Assembly: GCF_003570905.1 (NCBI RefSeq)
Contig: NZ_QXJM01000027.1
Coordinates: forward strand, 310,001 to 374,000
Source of the DNA: Cohnella faecalis
GTDB taxonomy: Bacteria; Bacillota; Bacilli; Paenibacillales; Paenibacillaceae
Length of the DNA: 64,000 nt
Reading direction: 5' to 3'
Shown: positions 22,270-54,204 of the stretch, in pieces
Numbering within the stretch: position 1 is the first letter of the stretch
Layout of the letters: every line of letters starts with the position of its first letter
The notes under the pieces: generated by a model
Told to the model about the DNA's origin: nothing
Databases searched by the model: none
What the model saw: the letters and a program-made list of their open reading frames with translations, nothing else
Program-made: the position numbers and the translations under genes

Positions 22270-22296
22270 GAAGACAGCGCCCCAAATCGGCGCAAT

Positions 22297-22335
22297 TAAA
22301 ACCGTCTGGGAAAGAGTGAATTCCGGGCGGTTTTT
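22297..22335 (+). terminator. Probable terminator after recG
   Basis: AAAACCGTCTGGGAA (22299-22313) pairs with TTCCGGGCGGTTTTT (22321-22335), allowing G-T pairs, and ends in five Ts. Confidence 0.6.
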
Positions 22336-22340
22336 CCATT

Positions 22341-22354
22341 TGTAAACGCTTTAA
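22341..22354. promoter_or_regulatory. cre-like operator 1
   Basis: TGTAAACGCTTTAA differs at one defined position from the Bacillus CcpA operator consensus TGWAANCGNTNWCA. Together with three other related sequences it suggests control by CcpA or another LacI-family regulator. Confidence 0.5.
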
Positions 22355-22382
22355 TTCCGATTATTCTTATCGAAATAATAAG

Positions 22383-22396
22383 TGCAAACGATTTCG
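22383..22396. promoter_or_regulatory. cre-like operator 2 (weaker)
   Basis: TGCAAACGATTTCG keeps the CG centre and AAACG half of a cre site, with two departures from consensus. Confidence 0.3.
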
Positions 22397-22499
22397 CAAT
22401 TTTTTGTATTTCGACAATTTCCGCGAGACAAATATTTGAAATTCGTGTTAAGATGTCGATATTATGATTATTATTTAACAATATTTTAGCTAAAAGGAG

Positions 22500-22529
22500 T
22501 TGACAGCTACTTTTTTTCGCGTGTATTCT
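22500..22529 (+). promoter_or_regulatory. Putative promoter of the NRPS/PKS operon
   Basis: A consensus TTGACA (22500-22505) is followed after 18 nt by TATTCT (22524-22529). It lies just upstream of the small ORF at 22568 and is the only strong hexamer pair on this strand after the recG terminator. Confidence 0.5.
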
Positions 22530-22567
22530 TCTTTGCTGGAGCCATTTTACTTGAGAGGGTGTTAGTA

Positions 22568-22696
22568 ATGGAATTCGGACGGAATTTAGTGCAAACGTTT
22601 GAACTAAAAATGAGAGTGGCGAACCGTTTTTTTTCGAAAGCGGTTACATCGTTGTCATACCGGATAATTGCGACGATTGATCCGGTGCTTCGATGA
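22568..22696 (+). CDS. Possible 42-codon leader ORF coupled to the exporter gene
   Basis: An open frame of 42 codons beginning MEFGRNLVQTFELKMRVANR and ending TIDPVLR. GAGAGGG lies upstream (22552-22558), at about 9 nt. Its TGA overlaps the ATG at 22693 (ATGA), the usual layout for translational coupling with the MFS gene. The peptide is basic, with no Trp and no run of one residue typical of amino-acid attenuators. No family is recognised. It could be a leader peptide, a small protein, or chance. Two cre-like sites lie within it. Confidence 0.4.
   Translation: MEFGRNLVQTFELKMRVANRFFSKAVTSLSYRIIATIDPVLR
22590..22603. promoter_or_regulatory. cre-like palindrome 3 (weak)
   Basis: TGCAAACGTTTGAA contains the perfect 10-bp palindrome CAAACGTTTG but departs from the cre consensus at three positions. 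It is inside the small ORF, downstream of the putative promoter. Confidence 0.3.
22635..22648. promoter_or_regulatory. cre-like operator 4
   Basis: CGAAAGCGGTTACA matches the cre consensus at all defined positions except the first. It lies about 105 nt downstream of the putative -10 element, a roadblock-type location. Confidence 0.45.
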
Positions 22697-23976
22697 CCGA
22701 CGCCTCCGTACACGTCGAAGCAGGAGCCGCCGCTCGAATGACGGAACAGGAGCCGCTCGGCAAAAAAATTCCATTATTTAGAAATAAAACTTTTATTTCA
22801 GTTTTTGCAGGTAATACTCTTTCAACGATGGGCGAAGGCTTCAATACGATTGCAATCGGCTACTGGGTACTGTCGACGACGGGCAGCGCCAAGGCGATGA
22901 CGGCCGTCATGCTGCCGCAAATGATTCTGGGCTTGCTGCTCGGCACGATTGCCGGCACGTTGGCAGACCGAAAAAACCGCAGAACGATCATGCTGTCGAT
23001 GGACTTGATTCGAGCGGTGCTCATGATCGGCGTTGCGGCCGTCGTATCCGGATCGTCAGGCTGGGGGATATGGGCGCTCGTGCCGCTGTTGACGCTCATA
23101 AACGCAGCGTCCCAGTTTCACAGTCCGGCGTTTCAATCGTCCTTGATTTACATCGTCGGCCAAGAGCAAGTCGGCCGCGCTACCGGCCTGATGCAGGTGA
23201 CCGATACGCTGGCCCGTCTGGGAGGACTAGCCCTCGGAGGATGGACGGTTGCGGCGTTTGGGGGGCCGGCGGCCGTTACCGTAGTCGGCGCAATGTTCGC
23301 ATTGTCCGCTCTTTGCGTCATGATAGCCGGGCCTTTTCCCATTCCGGCTGCGAAGTCCGACAACCGAAAAAGCTTTTGGACGGATCTCAGGCTCGGACTG
23401 GCGTTTATTCGCAAGCATCCTTTCGCTCGATCCGTGTCGCTGCTGCTGCCTTCCGTCATGATTTTTTTTACGGCGTCGATGATGCTGTTTCAGGTGATGG
23501 CCGTCACGGTCTGGCATGCCACTCCGAAGGAGTTCGGGCTGATGGAGGCGGCAATCCCGATCGGTTATGCGGGCGGCTCGGGCTTGATGTTGCTGCTAAA
23601 CCGGCGCATGACAAGGCGCGGCTGGTGGATTGGCGTATCCGTATTGCTCGCGGGACCGAATCTGATTGTGATGTCCGCGATGCCCGATGTATTTTCCGCA
23701 CTGCCGTTCGTCTTCTTGATCGGATTTATTTTGTCCGTCGGCACCGTGCTCGTCATGATCGCGCTGCGAACGGAGACGGCGGCGGAATTCCAGGGTCGCG
23801 TGTTCGGAGCCATCGGCTCGCTTACGAATTTGTCTACCCCGGTGGGCTTGGTGATGTCCGGCATTTTGTCGGATCGGTTCGGCGCCGATCGAATGCTTTT
23901 CCTCAACGGACTCGGCTTGACGGCAATCGGCTTATGCTGCATAGCCTTGCTTAAGCCCTTGAGGCAATACCGTTAA
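22693..23976 (+). CDS. MFS efflux transporter of the cluster
   Basis: A 427-residue protein with about 12 hydrophobic segments, of the macrolide-efflux-like MFS group. The first helix region begins RNKTFISVFAGNTLSTMGEG, and a basic loop ADRKNRRTIM follows helices 2-3, as in the family's GXLADRXXRR motif. Two starts are possible: ATG 22693, coupled to the small ORF, or ATG 22738 (MTEQEPLG), which has AGGAG upstream. It is the first large gene of the biosynthetic operon, 29 nt before the thioesterase gene, and probably exports the product or gives self-resistance. Confidence 0.88.
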   Translation: MTDASVHVEAGAAARMTEQEPLGKKIPLFRNKTFISVFAGNTLSTMGEGFNTIAIGYWVLSTTGSAKAMTAVMLPQMILGLLLGTIAGTLADRKNRRTIMLSMDLIRAVLMIGVAAVVSGSSGWGIWALVPLLTLINAASQFHSPAFQSSLIYIVGQEQVGRATGLMQVTDTLARLGGLALGGWTVAAFGGPAAVTVVGAMFALSALCVMIAGPFPIPAAKSDNRKSFWTDLRLGLAFIRKHPFARSVSLLLPSVMIFFTASMMLFQVMAVTVWHATPKEFGLMEAAIPIGYAGGSGLMLLLNRRMTRRGWWIGVSVLLAGPNLIVMSAMPDVFSALPFVFLIGFILSVGTVLVMIALRTETAAEFQGRVFGAIGSLTNLSTPVGLVMSGILSDRFGADRMLFLNGLGLTAIGLCCIALLKPLRQYR

Positions 23977-24005
23977 AACCAAATATGGCGGACAAAGGAG
24001 AACGT

Positions 24006-24722
24006 ATGGATCGAGTAACGCTGTTTATGTTTCCTTACGCGGGAGCATCCGCCTCCGTATACGAGAAGTGGAAGCCTCTGTTTCACGAATCTATCGATAT
24101 CGTCCCTGTCGAAATTCCGGGGCGGGGAAAACGATTCCCGGAGCCGCCGCTTCGGCGCATCGGGCCAATCGTGGAAGACGCTTACACACGCATCGAAGGG
24201 CAACTGTCCGAACGTCCCTACGCCTTGTTCGGGCACAGTCTCGGAAGCGTCGTCGCTTTCGAATTGGCGCGCAAGGCGAAGCGGCTAGGAAAGAAGCCTC
24301 CGGTTCGGCTGTTCGTGTCGGGCAGGGCGGCACCTCAAGTCAAAGAGCTTGACGAGCCGGTCTACTTGCTGCCGGACGAGCGGTTCAAGCAAAAAATACG
24401 GAGCCTGGGCGGAACGCCTCCGGAGTTTTTCCAGAACGAGCAGCTTCTCTCGCTGTTTTTGCCCATTTTGAAGGCCGATTACGAAGCGTCGGACACTTAC
24501 CGCGATGAGGCGGATGCCTCCGACAAGTTGTCTTGCGGAATGACGGTGCTGCACGGAACGGAAGACGAGCCTTGCGATCCGTCGGAATGGAGCGTTCATT
24601 CGACCGGAACGAGCGACTTTCATGAATTCGAAGGCGGCCATTTCTTTATCAACGAGCATGCGAAGCCGGTTGCGGAATTGATCAATCGTTTGCTGTGCAC
24701 GAAGGAGGAACGAACCTTATGA
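24006..24722 (+). CDS. Type II (editing) thioesterase
   Basis: A 238-residue alpha/beta hydrolase of the GrsT/SrfAD type. The start at 24006 follows AAAGGAG (23994-24000); an in-frame ATG at 23985 would overlap that site. MFPYAGASASVYEKW near the N-terminus and the nucleophile elbow FGHSLGS are typical. Catalytic Asp and His are likely in HGTEDEPCDP and FEGGHFFI. Such enzymes clear misprimed or stalled acyl groups from carrier proteins. Its TGA overlaps the ATG of the first synthetase, so both are translated together. It is separate from chain release, for which the cluster has no TE domain. Confidence 0.93.
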   Translation: MDRVTLFMFPYAGASASVYEKWKPLFHESIDIVPVEIPGRGKRFPEPPLRRIGPIVEDAYTRIEGQLSERPYALFGHSLGSVVAFELARKAKRLGKKPPVRLFVSGRAAPQVKELDEPVYLLPDERFKQKIRSLGGTPPEFFQNEQLLSLFLPILKADYEASDTYRDEADASDKLSCGMTVLHGTEDEPCDPSEWSVHSTGTSDFHEFEGGHFFINEHAKPVAELINRLLCTKEERTL

Positions 24723-27700
24723 CGATTCGGAATCTAGCGCAGCTGCTGTTTAGCGATCGAACGGAAGGCAAAGGAATTACATTCATCCGAAGCGCGTCCG
24801 AGCAGTCGACCGTCAGTTACCGGGACTTGCATCGCGAAGCGTCCTTGCTGCTGAGGCACATGCAGGAAGCCGGACTGAAGCCCGGCAACGAGCTCGTCTT
24901 CCAGATCGAGCAGAACCGCGTATTTCTGACCTGGTTTTGGGCGTGTATGCTCGGCGGCATCGTGCCGGTGCCGCTCACCCCGGGCGGTAGCGAGGAGAAC
25001 AAGAAGAAGCTCACAAGCGTATGGAAAAAGCTGAATCGGCCTTACCTCGTCGCCGAAGCGGACTTTTGGAGCCGTCATTCGGCGGAGAGCGGCGGCCCGG
25101 GCGACGAATTCGGCGCCTTGCTGGCGGAAATCGGCAGCGAGAGATCGCTTGTCGCCGAGTGGTCGGAATTGTCGGGCGAGCCGGGACAGCTTCACGAGAG
25201 CTCGCCGGAGGATATCGCTTTTATCCAGTTTTCCTCGGGTTCGACCGGCGAGCCCAAGGGCGTGACGCTGACTCATGCGAATTTGCTCGCTAACATGCGG
25301 GCGATCGTCGAATGCTCCGGGGCGACCGGGCTCGATTCATCGCTAAGCTGGATGCCGATGACGCACGACATGGGCTTGATCGGTTTTCACCTGACGCCGA
25401 TTATGGCGGGCATGAATCAATATTTGATGCTTCCCGCTCTGTTCATTCAGCATCCGACGTTGTGGCTGAACAAAGCGAACGAGCATCGGATTACGACGCT
25501 GGCGTCGCCGAATTTCGGCTATAAGCACTTTTTGGCCCACTACAAGCGCGAGCAAGCGAAAAATTGGGATTTGTCCTCCGTTCGGCTGATCTTTAACGGA
25601 GCCGAACCGATTTCCGCGAGCTTGTGCCGTCAATTTTTGAACGAAATGAACGAATACGGCCTTCGCTCGAACGTTATGTTTCCGGTGTACGGGATGGCGG
25701 AAGCAAGCCTTGCGGTTACGTTCCCGCCTGCGGGCGAGCCGCTGATCGATGTAGAGGTGGAGCGCGGATCGAGAACGGGGCAGCCCGTTCGGGAGCATGT
25801 GCGGGATGAGAACGGCGACGGCAAAGGCGACGGCGAACGGCGCCCTACAGTTACTTATGTCGATCTCGGAAGCTCTGTCACCGATTGCGAAGTCAGAATT
25901 TGCGGTGAGCAGGACGAGCCGTTCTCCGAAGGCGTAATTGGGGAAATCCATATACGAGGACGCAACGTCACTCGCGGATATTACAACGACGAGGAAGCGA
26001 CGAAGCGGGCTTTCGCGGAAGACGGCTGGCTCCGAACTGGCGACCTCGGATTTATGCGGGGCGGAAGGCTCGTCGTAACGGGCCGCAAAAAAGACGTGCT
26101 TTTCGTAAACGGGCAAAATGTCTATCCTCACGATTTGGAAGCGCTGCTGGAAGAAGATGAAGGTGGGCAATTGCGTAGAGTTGCCGTATGCGGCGTGTTC
26201 AACGAACGGCTTCAGTCGGACGAAATGATCGTGTTCGTGCTGTTTCGCGGCAAGCTGCAGACGTTCGTTCCCGTGGCGGAGCAAGCGGAGCGCCTGATTC
26301 GAAAACATGCCGGCTTCGATGTCGGCGCGGTGCTTCCGGTCAGACAGATTCCGAAAACGACGAGCGGAAAGCTCCAGCGCTATTTGCTGGCGCAGCGGTT
26401 CGCGGACGGAGAGTTCGCCCGGGAGCAGCGAGAGCTGGAGGAGCTTCGGAGAACGGCGTCATCGGAGTCGCGTACCGTCGAATGGTCGGAGGACGAATTG
26501 GAGCGCGACCTTCAAAAGATGGGAATGGAGGCGCTCGGCACCGCATCGCTCGGCGTGGACGATTCTTTCTTTGAAAATGGCGGCAACTCTCTGAAAGCGG
26601 CTCTTTTCGTAGCGGCGGTGCAGGAGCGGCTCGGTGTCGAAATCCCGATTCGCGAGCTGTACGGAAAAGATACGGTGCGCGAGCTTGCGGGCTTGATTCG
26701 CGAAGCGGAACCGGTCGAGCGGCCTAACGCAACCGCGATAAAACCGGCGGAGCGTCGGGAGCATTACCCGCTTTCCGAAGCGCAATACCGGATTTACGCC
26801 CAGGAGCAGCAGGAAGGGATTGGAGCTTGCTATAACGTTCCAGCAGCGCTGAGAATCGACGGGCCGTTCCGGCTGCAAGAGGCGGAGAGAGCGTTCTCCG
26901 AGCTGATCGGTCGCCATGAATCGCTGCGCACCTCTTTTCACTTGATCGAGGGGGAAATCGCGCAGCGGATCGATCCGGGGCCGGTACGTTTCGCCGTAGA
27001 GTCGATCGAAGCGGACGAGGGGGAGCTGCCCGGCTTGATCGTCGGCTTCATCCGGCCTTTCGATCTGACGGCCGCGCCGTTGTTTCGGGCGAGAACGATC
27101 CGGCTCGCGGAAGATCGTCACGTTCTTCTGATCGATGCTCATCACGCCATTTGCGACGGTATTTCCTTAACCGTATTGATGGAGGAATTCGCTGAGCTTT
27201 ACGTAGGGAAAACGCTTCCATCGCCCGGCATCGCTTATATCGATTACGCTGCCTGGTACGAAGGCGAAAAGAAAGAGGCGCGTTCGGAGAAGCACCGGTC
27301 TTATTGGAGCGAGCGGCTGAAAGGGCTTCCAGTGCTGCAAATGCCGACCGATTATCCGCGACCGGGAAAACGGACGTTCGAAGGGGATGCCGTCTTTTTC
27401 GAATTGCCGGAAGGAGCGGCGTACCGAATCGTCAAGCTGGCGGAGACTCGTAAAATTTCACTCTACGCCGCATTTTTGTCCGTCTATTTCGTGCTTCTGC
27501 ACAAGTATGGAGCGCAGCGGGACATCGTCGTCGGCTCCTTGCTGGCAGGAAGGGACAAGCCCGAAGTTAGGCGTACGGTCGGCATGTTCAACCGGTTTCT
27601 GCCGATCCGCGCCGAAATTCCGGAGGAAGCCGACTTCGAGACGTTCATGCTGCGGGTGAACGACGAGCTGATGGACGCTTTCGATCATCAACGGTTCCCG

Positions 27701-30700
27701 ATAGACGATATTGCGGCGGATGCGGGCGCTGCAAGGGATCGTTCGCGCAATCCGCTGTACGATACGATGCTTATATTGCATAACCAGATGGACGGAAAAG
27801 TCCGATTCGATGCCGGAGGGGCGCGGTTCAGCCGAATCGATGTGCATTCGGGCACTTCCAAGCTTGATTTCAAGCTCGATCTGTTCCCTGGGGAAAACGG
27901 CCGGCTGGACGCGGTGCTGGAGTATAATTCGAGCTTGTTCAAGCGGGAGACGATGGAGCTGTTCGCGGAGCGCTACGCGAGGCTGCTCGAAGCGGCGGCG
28001 GCAGATCCGCGCAAGCCGATCGAGGAGCTGGAGCTGCTGACGGAAGAAGAGCGTGAGCTGCTGCTGACGGGCTTCAACGACACGCATGCGGCATATCGCA
28101 ACGACGTTCTGCTGCACGAGCTGATCGAAGAGCAGGCGGCGCGAACGCCGGATAAGATCGCCTTCGCGTTCGGGGATCGCAAGCTGACGTACCGGGAGCT
28201 TAACGGGCAGGCGAACCGGCTGGCGCGAACGCTTCGCGCCAAGGGCGTCGGGCCGGAGAGCGTGGTCGCGGTCGCGATGGAGCGCTCGGAGGAGATGATG
28301 ACCGCGCTGCTGGCGGTGCTGAAGGCGGGCGGAGCGTACATGCCGCTGTCACCGGACGTTCCGGCGGAGCGCGCTGCGTACATGCTCGGCGACAGCGGAG
28401 CGCGGCTCGCGTTGACGCAAAGCGGCTTTGCGGCGGAATTTGCCGCCAAGCTGGCGGGAACGGGCTCGGAGCTGCTGGACGTAACGGAAGCGTTGTTGGC
28501 CGGATCGACGACAAGCCTGGATTCCGAGACGAGCCTTGAGCGGCTCGGTACTTCGCGAAGCCCGGCGTACATCATTTATACGTCGGGCTCGACGGGCCTT
28601 CCGAAGGGCGTCATGGTCGAGCATTATTCGGTCGTCAACCGGCTGAACTGGATGCAGAAGGCGTATCCGCTGACGGAGCGGGACGTCATTCTGCAAAAAA
28701 CGCCGTACACGTTCGACGTATCGGTGTGGGAGCTGTTCTGGTGGGGGACGGTCGGAGCGTCGGTGCTGTTCCTTGAGCCGGGAGGCGAGAAGGAACCGGA
28801 AGCGATCGTTCGCGCGATCGAAGCCGGGGGCGCAACGACGATCCATTTCGTGCCTTCGATGCTCAGCGCGTTTTTGGACGCGGTGGAAGGCAGGCCGGAG
28901 CAAATCCGGAGGCTGTCGGGGCTGAGGCAGGTGTTCGCAAGCGGAGAGGCGCTGACCGCGAAGCAGGCGAACCGGTTCCGGGCTCTGCTGCACGAAGCGA
29001 ACGGAACGCGTCTGATCAACCTGTACGGGCCGACCGAGGCGACGGTGGACGTAACGCATTTCGACTGCACGGCGCACGAGCGGCTGGAAACGGTGCCGAT
29101 CGGACGGCCGATCGACAATACGAGGCTGTACATCGTGAACGAGGCGAACCGTCCGCAGCCGATCGGCGTAGCCGGGGAGCTGTGCCTCGCGGGAGACGGA
29201 TTGGCGCGGGGATATGTGAACCGGGCGGAGCTGACGGCGGAGAAATTCGCGGACAACCCGTTCGAGCCGGGCGGACGAATGTACCGGACGGGCGACTTGG
29301 CAAGATGGACGGCGGACGGAAACGTCGAATATTTGGGCCGGATCGATCACCAGGTGAAAATCCGTGGTTATCGGATCGAGCTGGGCGAAATCGAAAACAC
29401 CCTGCTGAAGCACGGATCGGTGAACGAAGCGGTCGTGACGGCGAGGACGGACGCGAGCGGGATGTCGTACTTGAGCGCGTATTACGTGGCGGTCGAGGAA
29501 CTGGGCGCATCGCAGCTGAGGGAGCATCTTAGTCGCAGCTTGCCTGCGTACATGATTCCGGCGTACTTCGTACAGCTGGAAGCGATGCCGCTGTCAGCGA
29601 ACGGCAAGGCAGACCGCAAAGCGCTGCCGGAGCCTCGGGGATTGGCGGCGTCCGCGGCGGAATACGCGGCGCCGACGGGTGAGACGGAGCGGGAGCTGGC
29701 CGTTCTATGGCAAGAGCTTCTCGGAGTGGAAAAGGTCGGAGTGAACGACGATTTCTTCGATCTCGGCGGCAACTCGTTGACGGCTGCGCGGCTGATTTCG
29801 AGGGTGCATAAGTCGTTCGGGGCGGATTTGCCGCTTAGAGACGTTTTCCAATCGCCGACGGTTGCGCAGCTCGCAGCGAAAATTACGAATGCGGGCCAAG
29901 GCGGGTATACCGCAATCGAGCCGGCGGAACCAAGGGAGCATTATCCGTTGTCTCCGGCGCAGAGCCGTTTGTTCATTCTCCATCGAATGGAAGAAGGCGG
30001 AGTCGGCTACCATTTGCCTGCAGCGTTGGATATAAGCGGCCCTGTCGATCGCGAGCGGCTGGAGGAAGCGTTCCAAAAGCTGATCGGCCGCCACGAATCG
30101 TTGCGAACCTCGTTCGCAATGACGGGGGCAGAGCCGATTCAGACGATTCACGAGCACGTTCCTTTCAAGCTCGATTATACGCGGCTGGAGGAATCGGGAG
30201 ATGAGCCGGGCGCAATCGAAGCGCGATTCCGGGCTTTTGTTCGACCGTTCGAGCTATCGGAGGCTCCGCTGCTGCGAGCCGAACTGATTCGCAGGGCGGA
30301 CAATCGGCATTACTTATTGTTCGACATGCACCATATCGTCGGCGACGGCATCTCCATGGCTGTGCTCCAGGACGAGCTGATCGCGTTATATGAAGGCGCT
30401 TCGCTGCCGGACTTGAAGCTGCAATATCGGGATTACGCGATGTGGCGGCTGGAGCATGCGAACGGAGAGGCGCTGCGCAAGCAGGAGGCGTACTGGCTCG
30501 ATCGCTTGTCGGGAGAGCTTCCCGTGCTTGGCATTGCGGGAGATTACCCGCGGCCGCCGGTCAAAAGCGCGGAAGGAGACCGGGTGTCGTTCCGATTGTC
30601 TCCCGAGCAGGCGGAGCAGGCGAGACGGATCGCTTCCCAAGCCGGCGCTACGCCGTATATGACGCTGCTTGCCGCGTTCAAGGCGCTGCTGGCGCGATAC

Positions 30701-33700
30701 GCGGGACAAGACGACGTCATCGTCGGAACTCCGGTGGCGGGACGGCCTCATTCTGAGCTGGAGCCGATCATCGGAATGTTCGTGAATACGCTCGCGATTC
30801 GCAGTTACCCGGCGGAGGGCAAGTCGTTCCATACGTTCTTGACGGAAGTGAAGGATGCTTCCATCGAAGCTTTCGAGAACGCCGACTATCCGTTCGAAGC
30901 GCTCGCGAACGCGCTCGGCGGAAGCCGCGATGTGAGCCGGAATCCGGTGTTCGACGCGATGTTCGTTATGCAGAACATGCGGCGGGCGGAACGGACGATC
31001 GAAGGAGTAACGTTCGGGCCTCTGGATTTGCCTACCGGGGCGGCGAAGTTCGACCTGCTACTGGAAATCGTCGAGGATGACGGCGGCGGGTACGAGTGCC
31101 GGCTGGAGTACGGAGCGAAGCTGTTCAAGCGAGAGACGATGGCGTTGTTCGCGGAGCGCTACGCCCGGCTGCTCGAAGCAGCGGCGGAAGATCCGTCCAA
31201 GCCGATCGGGGAGCTGGAGCTGCTGACGGAGGCGGAGCGGGAGCTGCTGCTGTCGGGCTTCAACGACACGCATGCGGCATATCGCAACGACGTTCTGCTG
31301 CACGAGCTGATCGAAGAGCAGGCGGCGCGAACGCCAGATAAGTTCGCCTTCGCGTTCGGGGATCGCAAGCTGACGTACCGGGAGCTTAACGGGCAGGCGA
31401 ACCGGCTGGCGCGAACGCTTCGCGCCAAGGGCGTCGGGCCGGAGAGCGTCGTCGCGGTCGCGATGGAGCGCTCGGAGGAGATGATGACCGCGCTGCTGGC
31501 GGTGCTGAAGGCGGGCGGAGCGTATATGCCGCTGTCGCCGGACGTTCCGGCGGAGCGCGCGGCGTACATGCTCGGCGACAGCGGAGCGCGGCTCGCGTTG
31601 ACGCAAAGCGGCTTTGCGGCGGAATTTGCCGCCAAGCTGGCGGGAACGGGCGCGGAGCTGCTGGACGTAACGGAAGCGTTGTTGGCCGGATCGACGGCAA
31701 GCCTGGATTCCGAGACGAGCTTTGAGCGGCTCGGTACTTCGCGAAGCCCGGCGTACATCATTTATACGTCGGGCTCGACGGGCCTTCCGAAGGGCGTCAT
31801 GGTCGAGCATTATTCGGTCGTCAACCGGCTGAACTGGATGCAGAAGGCGTATCCGCTGACGGAGCGGGACGTCATTCTGCAAAAAACGCCGTACACGTTC
31901 GACGTATCGGTGTGGGAGCTGTTCTGGTGGGGGACGGTCGGAGCGTCGGTGCTGTTCCTTGAGCCGGGAGGCGAGAAGGAACCGGAAGCGATCGTTCGTG
32001 CGATCGAAGCCGGGGGCGCAACGACGATCCATTTCGTGCCTTCGATGCTCAGCGCGTTTTTGGACGCGGTGGAAGGCAGGCCGGAGCAAATTCGGAGGCT
32101 GTCGGGGCTGAGGCAGGTGTTCGCAAGCGGAGAGGCGCTGACCGCGAAGCAGGCGAACCGGTTCCGGGCTCTGCTGCACGAAGCGAACGGAACGCGTCTG
32201 ATCAACCTGTACGGGCCGACCGAGGCGACGGTGGACGTAACGCATTTCGACTGCACGGCGCACGAGCGGCTGGAAACGGTGCCGATCGGACGGCCGATCG
32301 ACAATACGAGGCTGTACATCGTGAACGAGGCGAACCGTCCGCAGCCGATCGGCGTAGCCGGGGAGCTGTGCCTCGCGGGAGACGGATTGGCGCGGGGATA
32401 TGTGAACCGGGCGGAGCTGACGGCGGAGAAATTCGCGGACAACCCGTTCGAGCCGGGCGGACGAATGTACCGGACGGGCGACTTGGCAAGATGGACGGCG
32501 GACGGAAACGTCGAATATTTGGGCCGGATCGATCACCAGGTGAAAATCCGTGGTTACCGGATCGAGCTGGGCGAAATCGAAAACACGCTGCTGAAGCACG
32601 GATCGGTGAACGAAGCGGTCGTGACGGCGAGGACGGACGCGAGCGGGATGTCGTACTTGAGCGCGTATTACGTGGCGGTCGAGGAACTGGGCGCATCGCA
32701 GCTGAGGGAGCATCTTAGTCGCAGCTTGCCTGCGTACATGATTCCGGCGTACTTCGTACAGCTGGAAGCGATGCCGCTGTCGGCGAACGGCAAGGCAGAT
32801 CGCAAAGCGCTGCCGGAGCCTCGGGGATTGGCGGCGTCCGCGGCGGAATACGCGGCGCCGACGGGTGAGACGGAGCGGGAGCTGACCGTTCTATGGCAAG
32901 AGCTTCTCGGAATGGAGAAGATCGGAGTGAACGACAATTTCTTTGAAATCGGCGGCAACTCGCTGCTGCTCGTTCGCGCCCATAACGAATTGGAAAAACG
33001 CTACCCCGGTCTTGTGAAATTAACCGATCTGTTCGTATACTCAACCGTTTCGAAGCTGGCCGAGCATGTGAATGCCCGACTATCGAACGTCGGTCAAGAA
33101 AATCTTGCGGAGCCGATCGCTCTGCCGGCGTCCTTCTTCGCCCGGCCGAACGAGCCGAATCAAGGACGTTCGTTCGATTTCCGGCTGGAAGCCGACGCCG
33201 TGCGGGCGCTGGAGGAGGTTTGCCGTTCGGAACGAATCGGCATGTATCCGCTGTTCGTAGCCTCCTTCTTGTTCGTCTTGGCTCGGCATGCCGGGAAGAC
33301 GGATATTGCGGTTCCGGCCGGACTTCCGGGCGGTCACCTCGTTAACGTGAAGGTCGGTTCTTCCGAGTTGGCCGATTTTCCGCAGCTTCTCTCGTCGGTT
33401 CGCCGGCAAGTGGAAGCGGCCGATACGGCGGCGGGACCGCGCAAGTACCGGGCGGAGCAATTGCGGAGCAGCGTTATTCCGAAAGACGAGCGGCACGTTC
33501 TTCCTTTGATTCGCGGCAAGGACGATCCGGGCTTCCGGTCGGGCGATCTTCATCCGTTCGATTTCGCCTTATCCGTGCATATCGTGCCGGGACAGATCGG
33601 CTTCCGCTTCGAATACAACGGAAGAAGGCTGCGAACGGAAAAGCTGAAATCGTTGATGGGGGATTTTCTTAAGTTCGTGACGTATTTATCCGCGCAATCC

Positions 33701-33748: not shown

Positions 33749-33750
33749 CG

Positions 33751-36671: not shown

Positions 36672-36711
36672 TTAGTCGACCGTCGGATTCCAGAAGCAGG
36701 AGGGGAAAACC

Positions 36712-40434: not shown

Positions 40435-40445
40435 GAGGAGGCGGA

Positions 40446-43400
40446 ATGATGGAGGTCGGTAACCCGATCTTGTACGAGCTGGACGATGACCGCGAAGAGA
40501 TTGCGGAAGCGAGGGACTATTGGCTCGCTCATTTGTCGGACGATCCCAAGCCGGCTTCGATCCAACCGGATCGCGCGGAAGGAGGAGTCGATAGAAGCTT
40601 CGGGAGCCTGTCGTTTGCTTGGCCGGAGCCGTTGTCTGCGAAGCTGCTGGAACTCGCGAGGGGACAGGATACGCTCCTGTATGTCGTTCTGCTTGCCGGA
40701 CTCGCAACCGTGGTTCGCAAATACGGCGGCGAGTCGGACATGACGGTCGCATCCCCGGAGTATGCCGGCTTTGGCTCAGGCGACGGAGACGCTCGATTGG
40801 CGACGAATCGCTATCTTCCGATCCGGTGCCGCCTTGATGGCGATATGACCGTGAAGGAGCTGCTGACGGCGGTAAACCGCACGGTCACCTCGGCCTATCG
40901 GTATCAATATTATCCGGTTCGGAAAGCGCTGGAGAAACAGGGACTCGAAGACCGTTCTTACGGCAAAATGGCCTGCGAGCTGACCAACATTCACGATTCG
41001 CGGGCATTGGAGTCTCTAAGAAATTCCGGGGACAACGAAATTTCGGTTTCGTTTACTCGCGCAGAGGGGCGGCTGGAAGGCCGTATCGCTTACGACGTCT
41101 CTTTGTTCACCGAGCGGAGCGTTCATACGCTGCTGGACGTCTGCGAATATGTGCTGGAGCAAGCGGCGGCCGATCCGGGCGCGAGCCTTCGGTCGTTGGA
41201 GCTTGTCCGCGCCCCGGAGCGGGAGCGAATGCTGGCCGAATTCAGCGGAAACAAATGGGATTTGCCCGCGAACGTCTCGATGTCCCGGTTGTTCGAGGAG
41301 CAGGCTGCGGCTTCTCCTTCCCGGACTGCGGTCGTGAGCGGAACGGAAAGACTGACTTACGGCGAGCTGAACGAAAAAGCGAATACGCTTGCCGATCGGC
41401 TGCGGCGAAGAGGAGTCGGCAACGGGCGGGTCGTCGGCATTATGCTGGAGAAGTCCGTTTTGATGGTGACGTCCATCCTCGCCGTGCTGAAAGCCGGGGG
41501 CGCTTATTTGCCTCTGGATCCCGGTTATCCCGAACCGCGCCTCCGCCATATGCTGGAGGACAGCGGGACGGAGGTTTTGTTGACCAGCGCTCTTTTTGCC
41601 GGACGGTTGCCTTTTGCCGGAAATACGGTCATCGTCGACGCGATCCCGCCGGAGGAAGAGGCTGAGGGCGACGAAGCATTCAGTCAAACAACGGGGCAGG
41701 CTGCGCTTGCGGACGACCTTGCTTATATGATCTATACGTCGGGCTCGACAGGGAAGCCGAAAGGCGTCATGGTCGGCCACCGGGGAATGGTCAACCTGCA
41801 ATCGTTTTTCAAGCGCGAGCTGAACGTTCGGGAAAACGACCGAATCCTGCAATTTGCCAGCGCTTCGTTCGATGCTTCCGTGTGGGAGCTGTTCATGGCG
41901 CTCTTTACCGGAGCGGAGCTGCACCTGCCTGCGCGGGAAGTGCTGGAGAGCTACGATAGATTTACGGACTATTTGAACGGGAACGGCATTACGATCGCGA
42001 CGCTCCCGCCTACGTTCGCGGCGCATCTCGATCCGTCGGGCGTTCAAACGCTCAGGCTGCTAATAACGGCCGGATCGGCAACGAGCCCCGAGCTGGTGCG
42101 GAGATGGAAGGGACGCGTAGAGTACGTCAACGCCTACGGTCCGACCGAGTCGACCATCTGCGCCACGATTTGGAAGGCGGACGAGGCTTTCGGCGAAGAT
42201 GAGCCGGATGGTTCGGCCGCGTCGTCTCCGCGATCGGTTCCGATCGGCAAGCCGATTTTGAATGCGGACGCATATATCGTCGGCTGTGACGGACAGCTTC
42301 AGCCGATCGGCGTCATGGGCGAGCTGTTCATCGGAGGGGTCGGCGTAGCGCTAGGCTATTGGGGGCGCGACAGCCTTACCGCCGAGAAATTCGTCCCGAA
42401 CCCGTACAAGCCGGGCGAGACGATGTATCGATCGGGCGATTACGCCAGATGGCTGCCGGACGGCAACATCGACTATAGGGGTCGCATCGACCATCAGGTC
42501 AAAATTCGCGGCTTCCGCATCGAGATCGGCGAAATCGAAACCGAGCTTCTCTCTCATCCGGACATAAGCGAGGCGGCGGCAGCGGCGAAAAGCTTGGCGG
42601 AGGGCGATGTCGGATTATGCGCTTATTACGTCGCTTCCAGTCCGATTCGTCCGCAGGAAATCAAAGACTGGCTCGCCTTGAGGCTGCCCGGCTACATGAT
42701 TCCGCAATACATGATCCCGCTGGACAAGCTGCCGCTCACGGTCAACGGCAAGGTCGATCTTGCGGCTCTTCCGGCTCCCGGTTCTTCCGGCTCCGGCGGC
42801 GGTACGCTGGACGAGAACGCTTCGGAAACGGAGAAGAAGCTTGCGAGACTGTGGAGCGAAGTGTTGGGCATAAGCTCCATAGGCGCGGACGCGCATTTCT
42901 TCGAAGCGGGAGGCCATTCCTTGCGCGCGGCGCTGCTCATCTCGGAAATCCATCGAACGTTCCATGCGCAGCTATCGCTGCGCGACGTTATGGAAGCGCC
43001 GACTTTGCGCGAAATGGCGAAGCGGATCGAAGAAAACGGGGGCAAGGGCTCGTTCGAGGCGATCGTTCCCGCGGCTCAGAAGCCTTATTACCCGTTGTCG
43101 CCGGCGCAAAAACGGCTGTACGTGCTCAGCCGGTTCGATCCCGAATCCGTCGCGTACAACTTGCCGGCCGCGCTGCTGCTGGAAGGGGAGCTTGATACCG
43201 ACCGTCTGAAGCGCGCTTTCCAGGCGCTGACGAGCCGTCACGAAACGCTGCGGACCTCGTTCGGGCTGGAGGACGGAGCGCCCGTACAATTCGTTCATTC
43301 CTCTGCGGACGTATCGTTCGAGATCGCGAGCGAGCCGCTTGGCGAGATCGGCGTCGACGCAACCGAAAAGGCCGTCAAGCAGTTCGTGCGGCCGTTCGAT

Positions 43401-44450
43401 CCGGGCGTCGCTCCGCTGCTGCGGGTTCGCGTCATTCGGTATTCGGATACGCGTCACACGTTGCTTTTGGACATGCATCATCTCATATCGGACGGGATTT
43501 CGACTTCCGTCTTTATCCGCGATTTGCTTCAATTGTACGCGGGCGAGCGGCTTGATCCGCTGCCGCTGCAATACAAGGATTTCGCTTGCTGGCAATCCGG
43601 GCGGCTCGAAGCGGGAGGAATGGAGGAGCAGGAGCGGCACTGGCTGTCCCAATTTTCCGTTCCGGTGCCGTCCCTCGGAATTCGAACGGACTACCCGCGT
43701 CCGTCGGAGCCGCTGTTCGATGACGGGGACGCCGTCGTGCGGACGATCCCGGCGGAGAAGACGAACGGGCTGCGAGAGCTCGCCGCTTCTGCCGACTCGA
43801 CGTTGTACATGGTGCTTCTAGCGGCTTACTCGACTCTTTTGTCCCGCTATTCCGGCGATGAGGACATCGTGGTCGGCACACCGGTGGCCGGACGGCGGCA
43901 CGCCGACCTGCAAGGGCTGATCGGGATGTTCATCAACATGCTGCCGATGCGCACCAGGCCGAAAGCCGGCCTATCGTTCGCCGATTATTTGAACGACGTC
44001 AAAGATACGGCGCTGCAAGCGCTGGAAAATCAGGATTATCCGTTCGACGAGCTCGTCCGGAAGCTGAACGCGCAGCGGGATTTCAACCGGAATCCGCTGT
44101 TCGACGCCTCCTTCGCCTTGCAGAACATGGACATGCCTCGCATCGAAGCGGAAGGGCTTGCCATCGAGCCGATCAATATCCGTTTCCACCCGGCCAAGTT
44201 CGACTTGACGCTATGGGCGGAGGAAGGGGAGGACGGGCTCCGGCTTACTTTGGAATATCGGCCCGCTTTGTTCAAGCAGGAGACGATCGCAAAAATGGTG
44301 GACGACTTGACGACGATTCTGGACCGCATCGTGGAGGAGCCGCAGATTGAATTGGGAGAAATCGAGCTTCTCGGCGACGAAGAACAACGGGCCATGGCCT
44401 CGCGTCTCGCCCGGCTGGAGCAGGATCTGGAGATGGAATTCGAACTATAA
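40446..44450 (+). CDS. NRPS subunit 3: partial C-A(Phe)-PCP-C
   Basis: A 1334-residue synthetase starting behind GGAGGAGGCGG; ATG 40449 is an equal alternative. The first 260 or so residues (AEARDYWLAHLSDD onward) match the C-terminal half of a C domain and have no HHxxxDG. The A domain has YTSGSTGKPKG near 428. Its core aligns residue for residue with GrsA and gives the code DAWTIAAIC(K), predicting phenylalanine. PCP Ser825 sits in GGHSLRAA, and a full C domain follows with HHLISDG at 1011-1017. It ends LEQDLEMEFEL, similar to the end of subunit 2. No epimerase domain is present. Confidence 0.93.
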   Translation: MMEVGNPILYELDDDREEIAEARDYWLAHLSDDPKPASIQPDRAEGGVDRSFGSLSFAWPEPLSAKLLELARGQDTLLYVVLLAGLATVVRKYGGESDMTVASPEYAGFGSGDGDARLATNRYLPIRCRLDGDMTVKELLTAVNRTVTSAYRYQYYPVRKALEKQGLEDRSYGKMACELTNIHDSRALESLRNSGDNEISVSFTRAEGRLEGRIAYDVSLFTERSVHTLLDVCEYVLEQAAADPGASLRSLELVRAPERERMLAEFSGNKWDLPANVSMSRLFEEQAAASPSRTAVVSGTERLTYGELNEKANTLADRLRRRGVGNGRVVGIMLEKSVLMVTSILAVLKAGGAYLPLDPGYPEPRLRHMLEDSGTEVLLTSALFAGRLPFAGNTVIVDAIPPEEEAEGDEAFSQTTGQAALADDLAYMIYTSGSTGKPKGVMVGHRGMVNLQSFFKRELNVRENDRILQFASASFDASVWELFMALFTGAELHLPAREVLESYDRFTDYLNGNGITIATLPPTFAAHLDPSGVQTLRLLITAGSATSPELVRRWKGRVEYVNAYGPTESTICATIWKADEAFGEDEPDGSAASSPRSVPIGKPILNADAYIVGCDGQLQPIGVMGELFIGGVGVALGYWGRDSLTAEKFVPNPYKPGETMYRSGDYARWLPDGNIDYRGRIDHQVKIRGFRIEIGEIETELLSHPDISEAAAAAKSLAEGDVGLCAYYVASSPIRPQEIKDWLALRLPGYMIPQYMIPLDKLPLTVNGKVDLAALPAPGSSGSGGGTLDENASETEKKLARLWSEVLGISSIGADAHFFEAGGHSLRAALLISEIHRTFHAQLSLRDVMEAPTLREMAKRIEENGGKGSFEAIVPAAQKPYYPLSPAQKRLYVLSRFDPESVAYNLPAALLLEGELDTDRLKRAFQALTSRHETLRTSFGLEDGAPVQFVHSSADVSFEIASEPLGEIGVDATEKAVKQFVRPFDPGVAPLLRVRVIRYSDTRHTLLLDMHHLISDGISTSVFIRDLLQLYAGERLDPLPLQYKDFACWQSGRLEAGGMEEQERHWLSQFSVPVPSLGIRTDYPRPSEPLFDDGDAVVRTIPAEKTNGLRELAASADSTLYMVLLAAYSTLLSRYSGDEDIVVGTPVAGRRHADLQGLIGMFINMLPMRTRPKAGLSFADYLNDVKDTALQALENQDYPFDELVRKLNAQRDFNRNPLFDASFALQNMDMPRIEAEGLAIEPINIRFHPAKFDLTLWAEEGEDGLRLTLEYRPALFKQETIAKMVDDLTTILDRIVEEPQIELGEIELLGDEEQRAMASRLARLEQDLEMEFEL

Positions 44451-44486
44451 TTCGATCCGCACGAGCGGAATGAAGGAGGATTCGTT

Positions 44487-47400
44487 GTGATAGAAAACCG
44501 ATTGATGACGGCGGACGGCCGGGAAACGGCGAAGCTCTACTGGTCGAATCATCTGTCCGGCGAGCTGCCGCGTGTCGCTCTGCCGGGGCAAAAACCGCAG
44601 TCTTCCGCGTATACCCGCGCGGAATTCCGGTTGAACGTTCCGGAGCTTCTCGCCAGCCGCCTTACGCGCATTGCGAAGCAGAACGACTTGAGCATGTTCG
44701 CGGTGCTGTTGGCCGCAGGCAAGGCATGGATTTCCCGCCTGACCGGTCAAGAGGATATTCCCGTTACCGTGCCGGTGTACTCGCTGACCGTGCCGGAGAG
44801 CGAGGCTTCGAACCGAAGGCTGGTCGTTCGCGATCGGCTGAGTCCGGAGCAATCGTTCAGGGACACGCTGTCCCAGGTGAAGATGACTTTATCCGAGTGC
44901 TATAGGCACCAGCTTTTTCCGTTGCGGCAAATCGAGGAGGAGCTAGGCTATCCCGGCGGCAAAGGAATGTGGAGCGCGATTGCGTTCGCCATGGAGGATC
45001 TCCATCTGGCGGAGCATATCGGGGCGCTGGCCGACGGTTCGCACGAGGCGGCGTTCGTTATTGGCAAGCGGGAAGGCGAGCTGACCGTGGCGGTTCGTTA
45101 CAACGGCGACATCTTCCATGAAGAAGCGATTCGGTCGTATGCCGAAGGCTATTTGTACGCGACGGAGCAGTTGCTGGATCATCCGGATCGCGCGATTTCC
45201 GAGGTTCGGTTGACGACGGAGGAAGAATGGAGCCGCATCGTACACTCGTTCAACGACACGAAGGCGCCTTACAGCGGCGACTGTACGATTCATGAATTGT
45301 TCGAGCGGCAGGCCGCCGAGAATCCGGACCATGCCGCCGTTATTTCCGGCGGCTCCACGGCGACTTATCGGGAGATGAACGATAAGGCGAACAAGCTCGC
45401 TGCCTTGCTGCGGCAAACCGGGATCGGACCGGGCAGCTACGTCGCCGTTCTGACGGATCGTTCCGTCGAAATGATAACGGCCGTGCTGGCGATTCTGAAA
45501 GCCGGGGGAGCTTATGTGCCGCTCGACCCGGGCTACCCGAGAACGAGGATCGAGACGATTCTGACTTCGCTGCCGATCCGGTGCATCGTGACCAAAGCGT
45601 CGGTCATGCGGCCGTTCCAGGAGCTGACTCGCAAGCTGCCAAACCTCGCGGACGTCGTGTACCTGGACGTTCCGACGGAGCGGCCCGGTCCGGAGCAGGT
45701 GCAGGAGCAGCGGGTTCGCGCGCTTTGGGACCGGATTACGGAGGAGTCGTTCGATTGGGTAACGGCCGGCGGCTTCATTAGCAGCTACGACGGACAGCCG
45801 TTCGGCGAAGCGGAAGTGGCCGAATACCGCGACCGCGTCGTCTCGCTCGCTAGAGCCGCGATCGGTCCGGATTCGAGCGTGCTTGAGATCGGCTGCGGCT
45901 CCGGACTCATTTCCTTCGAGCTTGCGCCTCTCGTGTCCAAGTACGTCGGACTCGATCCGTCGGAGAAGATGCTTGAGCGCAACCGGGCGACAGCCGAAGA
46001 GCTGGGGCTTCAAGGCACGGAATGGATCAGCGGCTTCGCCCATGACCTGGAGGGGCAGGCGGAGGCGAGCTACGATCTGATCGTGCTAGCGAGTACGGCG
46101 CAGTTTTTTCCTGGTTACGCCTATTTGGAAAATATTGTGGAGCTCGCGCTCCGCTGCTTGAAACCGGGCGGCACTTTGCTGCTGGCCGATATAATGGATT
46201 TGCGTAAAAAGGACGAGTTCCGGGAAAGTCTGGAAGCTTATAAAAAGCTTCATGGAACGGAGAGCCGCACGCGGTCGGTGCCGGATTACGAGCTTTATTG
46301 CGACGAGGACTTCTTCTATGACTTGCAGGCCGACTACGGGCAAATCGGCGAAGTCGGCGTGCTGCACCGGACGGAAGGGTTCCGCAACGAGCTCGGCTAC
46401 CGTTATGACGTTGTCGTCAAGAAGGCCGAGCGGGTCGGTGAGAGCGCGGTCGCGCCGGAGAGAGCGCACGCCAAACGAAAAACCATTTGGACGGCTTACC
46501 ACGTCGATCGGCAGTCCGCGAAGGAGCTCGTCTCGGGAGCTGTGCCGGATAACGAAGCTTACGTTATTTTCACGTCCGGCTCGACCGGTACGCCGAAGGG
46601 CGTCGTCGTGCGCCACAAGCCGGTTATTAACGTCATCGAATGGGTGAACCGCCATCATGGCGTCGGTCCCGGCGACGTGCTGCTGTTCTTGACCCCTCTA
46701 TGCTTTGACTTGTCCGTCTACGATATTTTCGGAACGCTTGCGGCAGGAGGGACGATTCGAATCGCTTCGGACGACGAGGCGAAGGATCCGGAACGACTGC
46801 TGGCTATATTGCGGAGCGAGCCGGTCACTATCTGGGATTCCGCGCCTGCGGCTCTGCAGCAGCTGGTGCCTTACTTGCGGATGAACTCGGCTCCGTCGGC
46901 TGCCCCGGCCGTTCGAACGGACTTCGTCTCGTCATGTTAAGCGGAGATTGGATTCCGCTTACGCTTCCGGCCGACATGAAGGAGCACTTCGAAGGAGTGC
47001 GGGTCACGAGTCTAGGCGGCGCGACCGAAGCGACGGTATGGTCCAATTTCTATCCGGTCGAGGAGCTTGATCCCGAATGGGTCAGCATTCCGTACGGCAA
47101 GCCGATTCAGAACGCGCGCTACTACATTCTGGATTCCAGGAACGAGCCTTGTCCGACGTATGTTCCGGGAGAGCTTTACATCGGCGGCGAATGTTTGGCG
47201 GCCGGCTATACGGATGCTGCGCTGACTGCGGAACGATTCGTTGCGGACCCGTTCGTCAGCGACGAGAACGCCCGAATGTACCGGACCGGCGATTTGGCCA
47301 AATGGCTTCCGGACGGAACGATGATCTTCCTGGGCAGAGCCGACAATCAAGTCAAAATTCGCGGCTTCCGGATCGAGCTCGGAGAAGTGGAGGCGCAGCT

Positions 47401-49129
47401 GCTGAAGCACGCGTCGGTGAAGGAGGCTCTCGTCGTCGACCGGACGGACCGGAACGGGCATAAATCGCTGTGCGCTTATTTTACGGCCGATCGCGACCTG
47501 CCTTCTGACGAATTGAAGAAGCATGCCGTCGCATCTCTTCCGGCGTATATGGTTCCTTCCCATTTCGTCCGCCTGGAGGCGATGCCCGTCACTTCGAACG
47601 GAAAGATCGACCGCAAGAAGCTTCCGTCTCCGCAAGAAGCGGCCGCCGTTGCCTCGGACGGCCCTGTCGCGGCTCTGTCGACTGCTCAGGAGCAACGGTT
47701 AGCCGCAATCTGGCGGGAAGTGCTGGATATCGGAGAGGTCGGCGCGGAGGACGATTTCTTCGATTTGGGCGGAGATTCTCTGCAAGCCGTGCAGGTTGTC
47801 GCCAAAGCGAACGAAGCGCGAATTAAGCTGTCGCTGCGCGACATGCTGCACTACCGCACGCTTCGGGCGATAGCGGAGCACGGCGGGGGCGAGGAGGTGG
47901 CGGAAACTGGGACGAACGTCGAGCTTGCCGCCGACCAGGTCGCCGCCGCTGCGAGTCCGGCGATCAGCCGCAGATACAATACGGGATTCATGGAGCCTGA
48001 CGTAAAGATTCCGTACTATTACCCTTGCTACCTGGGGGCGGTCTACGCCAAGTTGACCTACGAGCACGCGTATAGCCTGCCGAGAAGCTTTCTTCCTTTC
48101 GGCGACGGGTTCGGCATAATCTCTTACGGGTTCCATGACGATGGCCAACTCGATAGCCGTCTTCAGTACTGTGATGTCAGCTATACGGGCGGGTTCCGGC
48201 TTGGAGACCGGTTCGCGGTTACTTCATCGTTCATTTCCTTCGATACGATGGAGGAAGGCATAGAGTGGTGCGAAGAGCGGCTGCGGGAGAACAAGCTGAT
48301 CGTCATGATGGGGACGACCTACTACTTGAATTACTGTCAGGATTACTTGATTGGCGAAGAGAAGTTCGCGGAAATGCTGAAAAATCGGGAAGCGCTGGAC
48401 GACGGACGGGGCGGAGATTCGCAGCATGCCCACATGTTCGTGATGGTCGATCACTCGGACAGGGGCTACGTCGTGTACGATACGTCGTTCAACTTCTTCG
48501 GAACGATACCGGAGCTGGATTTGAAGCGTTCGTTCGCAGGCGTAAAAGGACTTTCGTTCCTGCAGAACGACGACGAGATCAAGTTCAAGAACGCGGGCAA
48601 CGCCGTGATCGATATTAGACTGGATGGATTCGTGCCAATGCCAGTCGAACAAATGGGCCTGGAGATGTTGGAGCGCTACATCGAAATTTGCACGGGTATT
48701 CGGCCGGGCGAAGAACCGATCGGCGGTTTGAAAGGATTTTTGGGTCTTGAGGGCGTCAAGGAAGCCGTCCGTACTTTCTCGGAGTGCGGGGACGGCGAGG
48801 CAGCGGTTCTTTTCTCGCTTGTGCTTTTCAACAATTGGAAGTATAAGAACATTTTCCTTAGAGACTTTTTGCAGGATCTTTCGAAGCTGGTCGCGATGGA
48901 CTCCTTGTCCGCGCTGCTGCAAGAGGTGGAGAATGCGGTCGCTGTGTTGGGCGGCTGGCATGAACGGACGGAAGCGAACAAGGAACTCTACGCGCAGCCC
49001 GGCAATCCGGAATTCAGCGCGTTCCGCAGCTCTGTCGCTCAGCAATTGACCGAGATGTATGCGAAACAAGCGGAAGTATTGCGGCGCGTGCACGAGGAAA
49101 TGAACAAGAGACGGGAGGAAGCCGTATGA
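44487..49129 (+). CDS. NRPS subunit 4: partial C-A(Cys-like, interrupted by methyltransferase)-PCP-BtrH_N-like; one frameshift
   Basis: About 1547 residues once one base is restored near 46919-46921 (ACGG(G)ACTTCG), giving TGLRLVMLSGDWIPL. GTG 44487 follows AAGGAGGA. Order: C-domain half (1-240) without HHxxxDG; A domain to motif A2; a SAM methyltransferase (about 400-660; EIGCGSGLISFE near 467); A3 FTSGSTGTPKG near 692 and the rest of the A domain; PCP with GGDSLQAV near 1097. The core residues read DLYDMSLVW(K), close to the cysteine code DLYNLSLIWK. The last 370 residues resemble the BtrH N-terminal fold: YPCYLGAVYAKL (likely nucleophile), FGDGFGIISYGF, GTTYYLNY, then SQHAHMFVMVDHSDRG (likely His). 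No TE is present. Confidence 0.88.
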
Positions 49130-49704
49130 AAAAGACGGTAATGGCGAACGCGCTGACGGCGAGGTTGAAGAGGGGAGACATGAGCGGAATGAAGGAGAGA
49201 AACGGCATGAGCAAGATAAAATCGGGTTTTCGAATCGGCGTTATGTTATGGGTTCTGTGCTGCTTCATAGGGGTGCTGCCGGTATCCGCGAAGACGACGG
49301 AGACTGGGACGACGAAGGTGACCGTTCACTACAAGCAAAAAGAAGGAGACCCGATAGATTGGAGTCTATGGGTGTGGGGCGATAGCGAGAACGGCGTAAG
49401 GCTTCCGTTTACCGGAACGGACGAGTTCGGCAAAGTGGCCGAAATCGAGCTGCCGGGGAAATTCCACAAGGTGGGCATTATCGTCAGCACGGACGATTGG
49501 AAGAAGGACGGCGGCGACCGATTCGTCGAGATCGTGAACGGCTCCGGGGAAATCAGCATTACGGGCGAAGGCTACATTGAAGATACTTCCGGGCGCGACG
49601 TGCCTTATTTGTGGCTCATTGTAGGAGTGGTCGTTATTCCGGTGCTGCTGCACATTTTCGAATACATCCGTTCGAGAAAAGGGCGGGAAGCGAAGACCGC
49701 TTAA
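49126..49704 (+). CDS. Membrane-anchored PUD-domain protein at the end of the cluster
   Basis: A protein of up to 192 residues. ATG 49126 overlaps the synthetase stop and has GGGAGG upstream. An internal ATG at 49207, with AAGGAGAG, gives a cleaner signal peptide ending PVSA-K and may be the true start. The mature part has the bacterial pullulanase-associated (PUD/CBM41-like) pattern: VHYKQKEGDPIDWSLWVWGD, FTGTDEFGKVAEI, VSTDDWKKDGGDRFVEI. A C-terminal transmembrane helix (LWLIVGVVVIPVLLHIF) and basic tail would leave the domain outside the cell. PUD domains usually bind alpha-glucans; a role in this cluster is unknown. Confidence 0.8.
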   Translation: MKKTVMANALTARLKRGDMSGMKERNGMSKIKSGFRIGVMLWVLCCFIGVLPVSAKTTETGTTKVTVHYKQKEGDPIDWSLWVWGDSENGVRLPFTGTDEFGKVAEIELPGKFHKVGIIVSTDDWKKDGGDRFVEIVNGSGEISITGEGYIEDTSGRDVPYLWLIVGVVVIPVLLHIFEYIRSRKGREAKTA

Positions 49705-54046: not shown

Positions 54047-54204
54047 TGCGATCCCTCCGTCGAATGGAATTCCAACTGTTTGAGTCGGTTTTTTTAAGAC
54101 AACCTTACCATTCGAATCCCAAAAATACAATATCGAGCGCAGGGAGGTCCAATCCGGATGCCGGACTCAAGCCGTCGAATATGAGCCAATCTCCCGTGAA
54201 ACGG

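Follow-up and report, generated by a model that had tools for sequence, protein, structure and literature searches.

A fatty acyl-AMP ligase-initiated lipopeptide synthetase locus of Cohnella faecalis with a CcbD/CtaG-like terminal domain

CcbD, AziU3, and CtaG share a carrier-dependent acyl transferase fold; CcbD is an amide-forming acyl transferase with Cys, His, and Glu in its active site, and CtaG is a proposed peptidyl transferase. The synthetases TioN (thiocoraline) and MarQ (maremycin) contain an adenylation (A) domain with a Cys-like code that is interrupted, in the interval from motif a2 to motif a3, by a methyltransferase (MT). In modules of nonribosomal peptide synthetases (NRPS), FkbH replaces the A domain and loads a glyceryl group, as described in a review (PMC8949500). 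Here we describe an operon of Cohnella faecalis with features of several of these systems, located at 22693-49704 of a 64,000-nucleotide stretch (hereafter the window; assembly GCF_003570905.1, contig NZ_QXJM01000027.1, positions 310,001 to 374,000 of the forward strand), which is part of a 429,988-base contig in a 6.43 Mb genome.

The open reading frame (ORF) list and Pfam scans revealed one co-directional run of ten ORFs on the plus strand, with the order fatty acyl-AMP ligase (FAAL)-acyl carrier protein (ACP)-condensation domain (C)-A-peptidyl carrier protein (PCP)-C-A-PCP-half-C, discrete acyltransferase (AT), CPBP membrane protein, ketosynthase (KS)-carrier-C, half-C-A-PCP-C, and half-C-A-MT-A-PCP-terminal domain. 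Pfam E-values were far past chance (AMP-binding 3.8e-241; ketoacyl-synt 6.3e-71), and motif scans showed HHxxxDG kept in 4/4 complete C domains and GGxSL in all six carriers. An earlier note on this DNA, made from the sequence by itself, had read this domain order at the same place, and the ORFs and Pfam matches bear it out; it left an MFS transporter, a thioesterase, and a PUD protein unnamed.

We interpret the operon, with moderate confidence, as encoding a line that assembles a short, linear lipopeptide and releases it as an amide. FAAL would load a fatty acid, and two Ser modules would extend it. The discrete AT would then provide malonate for the KS to add a single two-carbon unit, followed by Phe and by a Cys-like residue, to which the MT embedded in the A domain of that module would add a methyl group. 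Finally, the Cys of the terminal domain would accept the chain carried by the last PCP, and the domain would hand it to a soluble amine, while the C-terminal C lobes that start the A-bearing proteins would serve either in docking or in restoring the C:A platform. The earlier note had proposed such a chain, joined to an acceptor, and its interpretation is partly supported, the product and its function being predictions. If correct, the line would mark a lipopeptide family, as yet uncharacterised, that spans Cohnella, Paenibacillus, and Fontibacillus, together with a natural experiment in module loss (clusters with and without FkbH), and would provide a fused release domain able to attach peptides to chosen amines.

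Release, substrate, and ketosynthase domains

The terminal domain (47906..49126) has a CcbD/AziU3/CtaG-like fold over most of its length, and these three proteins gave its best and fullest fold matches, at 9-17% identity. Cys41, His176, and Asp192 (codons 48026-48028, 48431-48433, and 48479-48481) are invariant in 10/10 aligned family members, and from their order and spacing, not from superposition, they would be equivalent to C11, H128, and D144 of CtaG. Because of this fold and the invariant Cys-His-Asp set, release of the chain onto an amine appears to be the best reading of the domain, and the fold likewise supports the transfer to an acceptor suggested in the earlier note. Unlike CcbD, AziU3, and CtaG, the window domain is the C-terminal part of an NRPS protein. 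We tentatively propose that a built-in cysteine acyltransferase of CcbD/CtaG type can close an NRPS line and pass the peptide to a soluble amine, distinct from release by a thioesterase, a reductase, or a terminal C domain. The A-MT-A-PCP-release unit may also act alone, making methylated cysteinyl amides, as the isolated genes in P. plantiphilus and P. oenotherae suggest.

Half-C-A-MT-A-PCP-release genes also occur at L059:6584-11236 and at L041-L043, with different neighbours and with the rest of the cluster not in the sequence read. Sister clusters at L080:12123-13187 and L082:3796-5929 are without the fused terminal domain; beside the A-MT-A-PCP gene they encode one or two stand-alone proteins, each about 355 amino acids long, which show weak BtrH_N matches and are without the PYYYPC cysteine motif.

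The fourth A domain consists of a first part with KAGGAY (45261..45686), an MT (45687..46436; Pfam Methyltransf_12, E 4.9e-17; match to PDB 5wmm over 394-646), a middle part with TSGSTG (46452..46886), and a last part (46934..47653), followed by PCP 4 (GGDSL; 47669..47899). KAGGAY at residue 338, the MT at about 400-650, and TSGSTG at 696 place the insertion between a2 and a3. Motif-based reading across the two pieces of this domain gives the code DLYDMSLVWK, Cys-like but inexact, since 7/10 positions equal DLYNLSLIWK, which we take to be the Cys reference code. Fontibacillus has DLYDFSLVWK, and P. anaericanus DLYTFSLIWK by script, with D for T by motif. In insertion site and code the domain resembles those of TioN and MarQ.

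Pocket-code extraction also supported the other substrates named earlier, namely Ser, Ser, and Phe; the tenth residue of each code, K, was appended by script. A domain 3 (41250..42785) has DAWTIAAICK, presumably the GrsA Phe code. A domains 1 (28079..29644) and 2 (31265..32839) gave DVWFFSLVDK by automatic alignment and DVWHFSLVDK, which we take to be the EntF Ser code, when position 278 was read from the motif IHFVPS. These two domains are near copies, with 99% identical protein and 1844 nucleotides shared at 97.9%. Identity between them is 88-97% in 6/9 relative loci measured (43-57% in the other three), indicating that homogenisation recurs.

The discrete AT (33745..35001) is of malonyl type by motif (GHSLG, AFH), with matches to Pfam Acyl_transf_1 (E 7.5e-30) and to the FabD model (E 4.5e-67, below the model's cut-off). 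The KS (36820..38361), in the ORF at 36712-40434, keeps DTACSS, HGTGT, and NLGH, and is followed by a linker, a PCP-like carrier (38812..39036), and C domain 3 (HHIVSDG; 39061..40386). A KS module without a built-in AT together with a separate AT gene supports the trans-AT polyketide synthase step that had been proposed for this locus.

The cluster family and the FkbH module

The window line is a shortened member of an uncharacterised family in Cohnella, Paenibacillus, and Fontibacillus. The earlier note recognised no known Paenibacillus product with this order; the genus here is Cohnella, to which Paenibacillus is a neighbour, and no product with this domain order was recognised in the open-access literature, but the line is not one of a kind. 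The nearest relatives, neither of them characterised, occur in Fontibacillus panacisegetis DSM 28129 and in Paenibacillus anaericanus DSM 15890, with domain identities of 31-68% to the window. The Fontibacillus cluster agrees with the window gene for gene and in gene order (MFS, thioesterase, FAAL-NRPS, AT, CPBP, KS protein, Phe protein, A-MT-A-PCP-terminal domain, PUD), and the P. anaericanus contig, which begins inside A domain 2, keeps this order from its first gene as far as PUD. Both relatives differ from the window in having ACP-C-FkbH-PCP-C behind the KS and a last synthetase encoded by a single ORF.

Searched at E<=1e-60, the CPBP protein was found in 17/394 genomes of the taxonomic family and 11/392 of the order (window included). 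We read 26 loci in 21 genomes, in sets of 6, 10, and 10, each with a CPBP gene followed by the KS protein; one related stretch without CPBP (G160) was left out. A carrier and a C domain stand behind the KS in 26/26 loci, the next domain being FkbH in 21/26 and an A domain in 5/26. Pfam scans showed no FkbH in the KS protein of the window, and the search of its genome was negative, as it was for 14 control genomes, whereas the same search found FkbH in 3/3 relatives.

C domain 3 is closer to the second C domain of the KS proteins of Fontibacillus and P. anaericanus (51% and 52%) than to the first (36% and 34%). The simplest account of this likeness and of the PCP-like carrier is that the KS protein of the window most likely lost ACP-C-FkbH from a longer ancestor, in which case the product would lack a glycerate unit. 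The vioprolide and corramycin lines share the FAAL start with the window and a C-FkbH-T module with its relatives. Their FAAL-ACP-C-HAD-T forms the first two modules, whereas FkbH in the relatives sits behind a trans-AT KS and the window has none.

Throughout the family the CPBP gene adjoins that of the KS. In 5/26 loci it takes the form of two or three small genes of their own, and the same five loci are the ones that have KS-ACP-C-A in place of FkbH.

Alternative readings

Several observations weigh against the pathway proposed above. At the release step, the Glu of CcbD is Asp in the window domain, and Pfam scans of the operon ORFs recognised no amine-making gene. The BtrH_N-like end described in the earlier note is seen in the family, where 7/10 aligned members reach E<=0.1, the best of them 1.4e-6, but the match of the window protein to BtrH_N (PF14399) is below threshold (E 0.08; 13.6 bits against a curated cut-off of 29.7). 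The terminal domain might instead hydrolyse the thioester or cyclise the chain, for instance onto a Ser hydroxyl, joining no soluble amine. We consider this unlikely, given that the fullest matches include an amide-forming enzyme and a proposed peptidyl transferase. The methylation is similarly equivocal: the structure matched over the MT, 5wmm, is presumably that of the N-methylating TioS. In PMC11355689, TioN and MarQ are listed as S-methylating and two other synthetases with a2-a3 insertions, the thalassospiramide enzymes TtcC and TtmB, as N-methylating. The methylated Cys-like residue of the earlier note is supported by code and inserted enzyme, and the target atom may be S or N; S-methylation would fit the Cys-like code better.

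At the KS step, the carrier is nearer to the PCP of Fontibacillus and P. anaericanus (37% and 35%) than to their KS-linked ACP (31% and 31%), and its nearest match overall is PCP 1 of the window itself (47%), which weakens the two-carbon unit of the earlier prediction even as the trans-AT step holds. A KS that only passes the Ser-Ser chain to this PCP-like carrier, the ACP type of the relatives being missing, would give acyl-Ser-Ser-Phe-(methyl)Cys. Such a non-elongating KS is doubtful, as the KS and the discrete AT both keep their motifs, and elongation with malonyl on the PCP-like carrier remains our preferred reading. Moreover, the KS-carrier-C of the window aligns end to end with the KS-ACP-C of the relatives (45% over 1-1219), which makes any exact cut tentative; together with the likeness of the carrier to PCP 1, this leaves room for a replacement of carrier and C that may have occurred instead of a loss of ACP-C-FkbH.

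The completeness of the operon, claimed in the earlier note, is doubtful, because A domain 4 is broken as sequenced. The break at 46884..46934, located by motif scan and the ORFs of relatives, divides the last synthetase into two ORFs in different frames (half-C-A-MT-A, 44487-46940; A-PCP-terminal domain, 46934-49129), where P. anaericanus, Fontibacillus, P. plantiphilus, and P. oenotherae (4/4 relatives) have one ORF of 1550-1555 amino acids. The conserved LRLV that precedes SGDWIP is encoded upstream of the ATG of the second ORF, in the frame of that ORF, and no ribosome-site-like sequence was seen ahead of this ATG. Decay of the cluster into a non-functional state is a rival account, to which this break, the lack of FkbH where 21/26 loci have it, and remnants of the last gene with no rest of the cluster nearby in P. 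plantiphilus, C. mopanensis, and (within 15 kb) P. oenotherae would all be congenial. Nevertheless, the remaining synthetase ORFs are open with intact motifs, and two unrelated genes of the window seem split over two frames in the same manner: a TatD-like hydrolase gene (57398-58215), whose downstream piece is covered by the TatD profile only from position 87 on, and an MBOAT/DltB-like gene (58878-60307), whose downstream piece matches MBOAT from position 107 only. Matching N-terminal sequence is legible by eye in another frame for both, although their upstream pieces gave no Pfam match. Genome completeness is 92.21, most of the 37 genomes of the genus being at 98-100 and three others at 78, 91, and 94. 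For these reasons we favour sequence error over true decay, which we regard as improbable, and we treat the line as probably working.

Loading modules, condensation lobes, and other operon genes

The FAAL-NRPS ORF (24695-33748) starts with the FAAL domain (24695..26434), which matches the model for fatty acyl-AMP ligases in NCBIfam (E 2.2e-95, below the model's cut-off) and is 59% identical to the FAAL of Fontibacillus. It is followed by an ACP (GGNSL; 26480..26710), C domain 1 (HHAICDG; 26759..28078), PCP 1 (29675..29899), C domain 2 (HHIVGDG; 29930..31264), and PCP 2 (32861..33079), as read from Pfam and motif scans. A FAAL-ACP start that leads into a C domain and NRPS modules agrees with the FAAL-initiated lipopeptide line of the earlier note. 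The Phe protein (40446-44450) likewise carries PCP 3 (42816..43040) and C domain 4 (HHLISDG; 43074..44405).

The half-C pieces reported earlier are present, but they are C-terminal lobes and not halves of a split domain. Their matches to the Pfam Condensation model (456 positions) cover 189-455 at the N-terminus of the Phe protein (40476..41240; E 5.2e-17) and 188-453 at that of the methylating module (44517..45236; E 6.6e-25); the lobe that ends the first protein (33095..33739; E 6.7e-7, below cut-off) matches best from position 207. By Pfam ranges and motif scan, HHxxxDG is absent from these pieces. Two halves of one split C were ruled out, complete C domains standing beside them. The lobe before A domain 4, with the start of that domain, aligns with linear gramicidin synthase A over residues 949-1327 of the latter. 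In seven related clusters, 9/10 A-initiated proteins behind a C-ending protein open with such a lobe, and the end lobe of the first protein, a docking candidate, was matched in most relatives that show the end of that protein. These lobes may serve in docking or in repair of the C:A platform. The thermoactinoamide synthetase ThdA also has a truncated C at its N-terminus ahead of an A domain (PMC7253712), but there the lobe belongs to the starter module, whereas those of the window come after a full C that closes the previous protein.

The CPBP protein (35001..36671) is a two-copy membrane protein that matches the Rce1-like Pfam model in two stretches (E 1.4e-17). CPBP intramembrane proteases have EExxxR and later His motifs, FxxxH and HxxxN. 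Motif scan and alignment found EEVYFR at 149 and KEILFR at 419, FxxxH at 62 and 411 only, and HxxxN nowhere, the usual catalytic His motifs not being seen past the Glu motif; the protein was thus not assigned as a protease of this kind.

The MFS transporter, a probable exporter (22693..23976; MFS_1, E 7.4e-21; 58% to Fontibacillus), the type II thioesterase with GHSLG (23985..24722; E 1.3e-45; 56%), and the small membrane protein with a PUD domain (49126..49704; E 1.2e-16; 54%, and 48% to P. anaericanus) are counted to the unit because the Fontibacillus cluster has them at the same places. A candidate sigma-70-like promoter (TTGACA, 18 nucleotides, TATTCT), assigned by consensus match only, lies ahead of the operon at 22500..22529 on the plus strand; both strands of 22200-24800 hold 6 promoter-like sites, compared to a mean of 1.7 (sd 1.2) in shuffles. 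A CysK cysteine synthase gene (TIGR01139, above cut-off) is found on the minus strand at 53111-54130, 3.4 kb past the cluster, and is probably a housekeeping gene, even though it would make the presumed Cys substrate.
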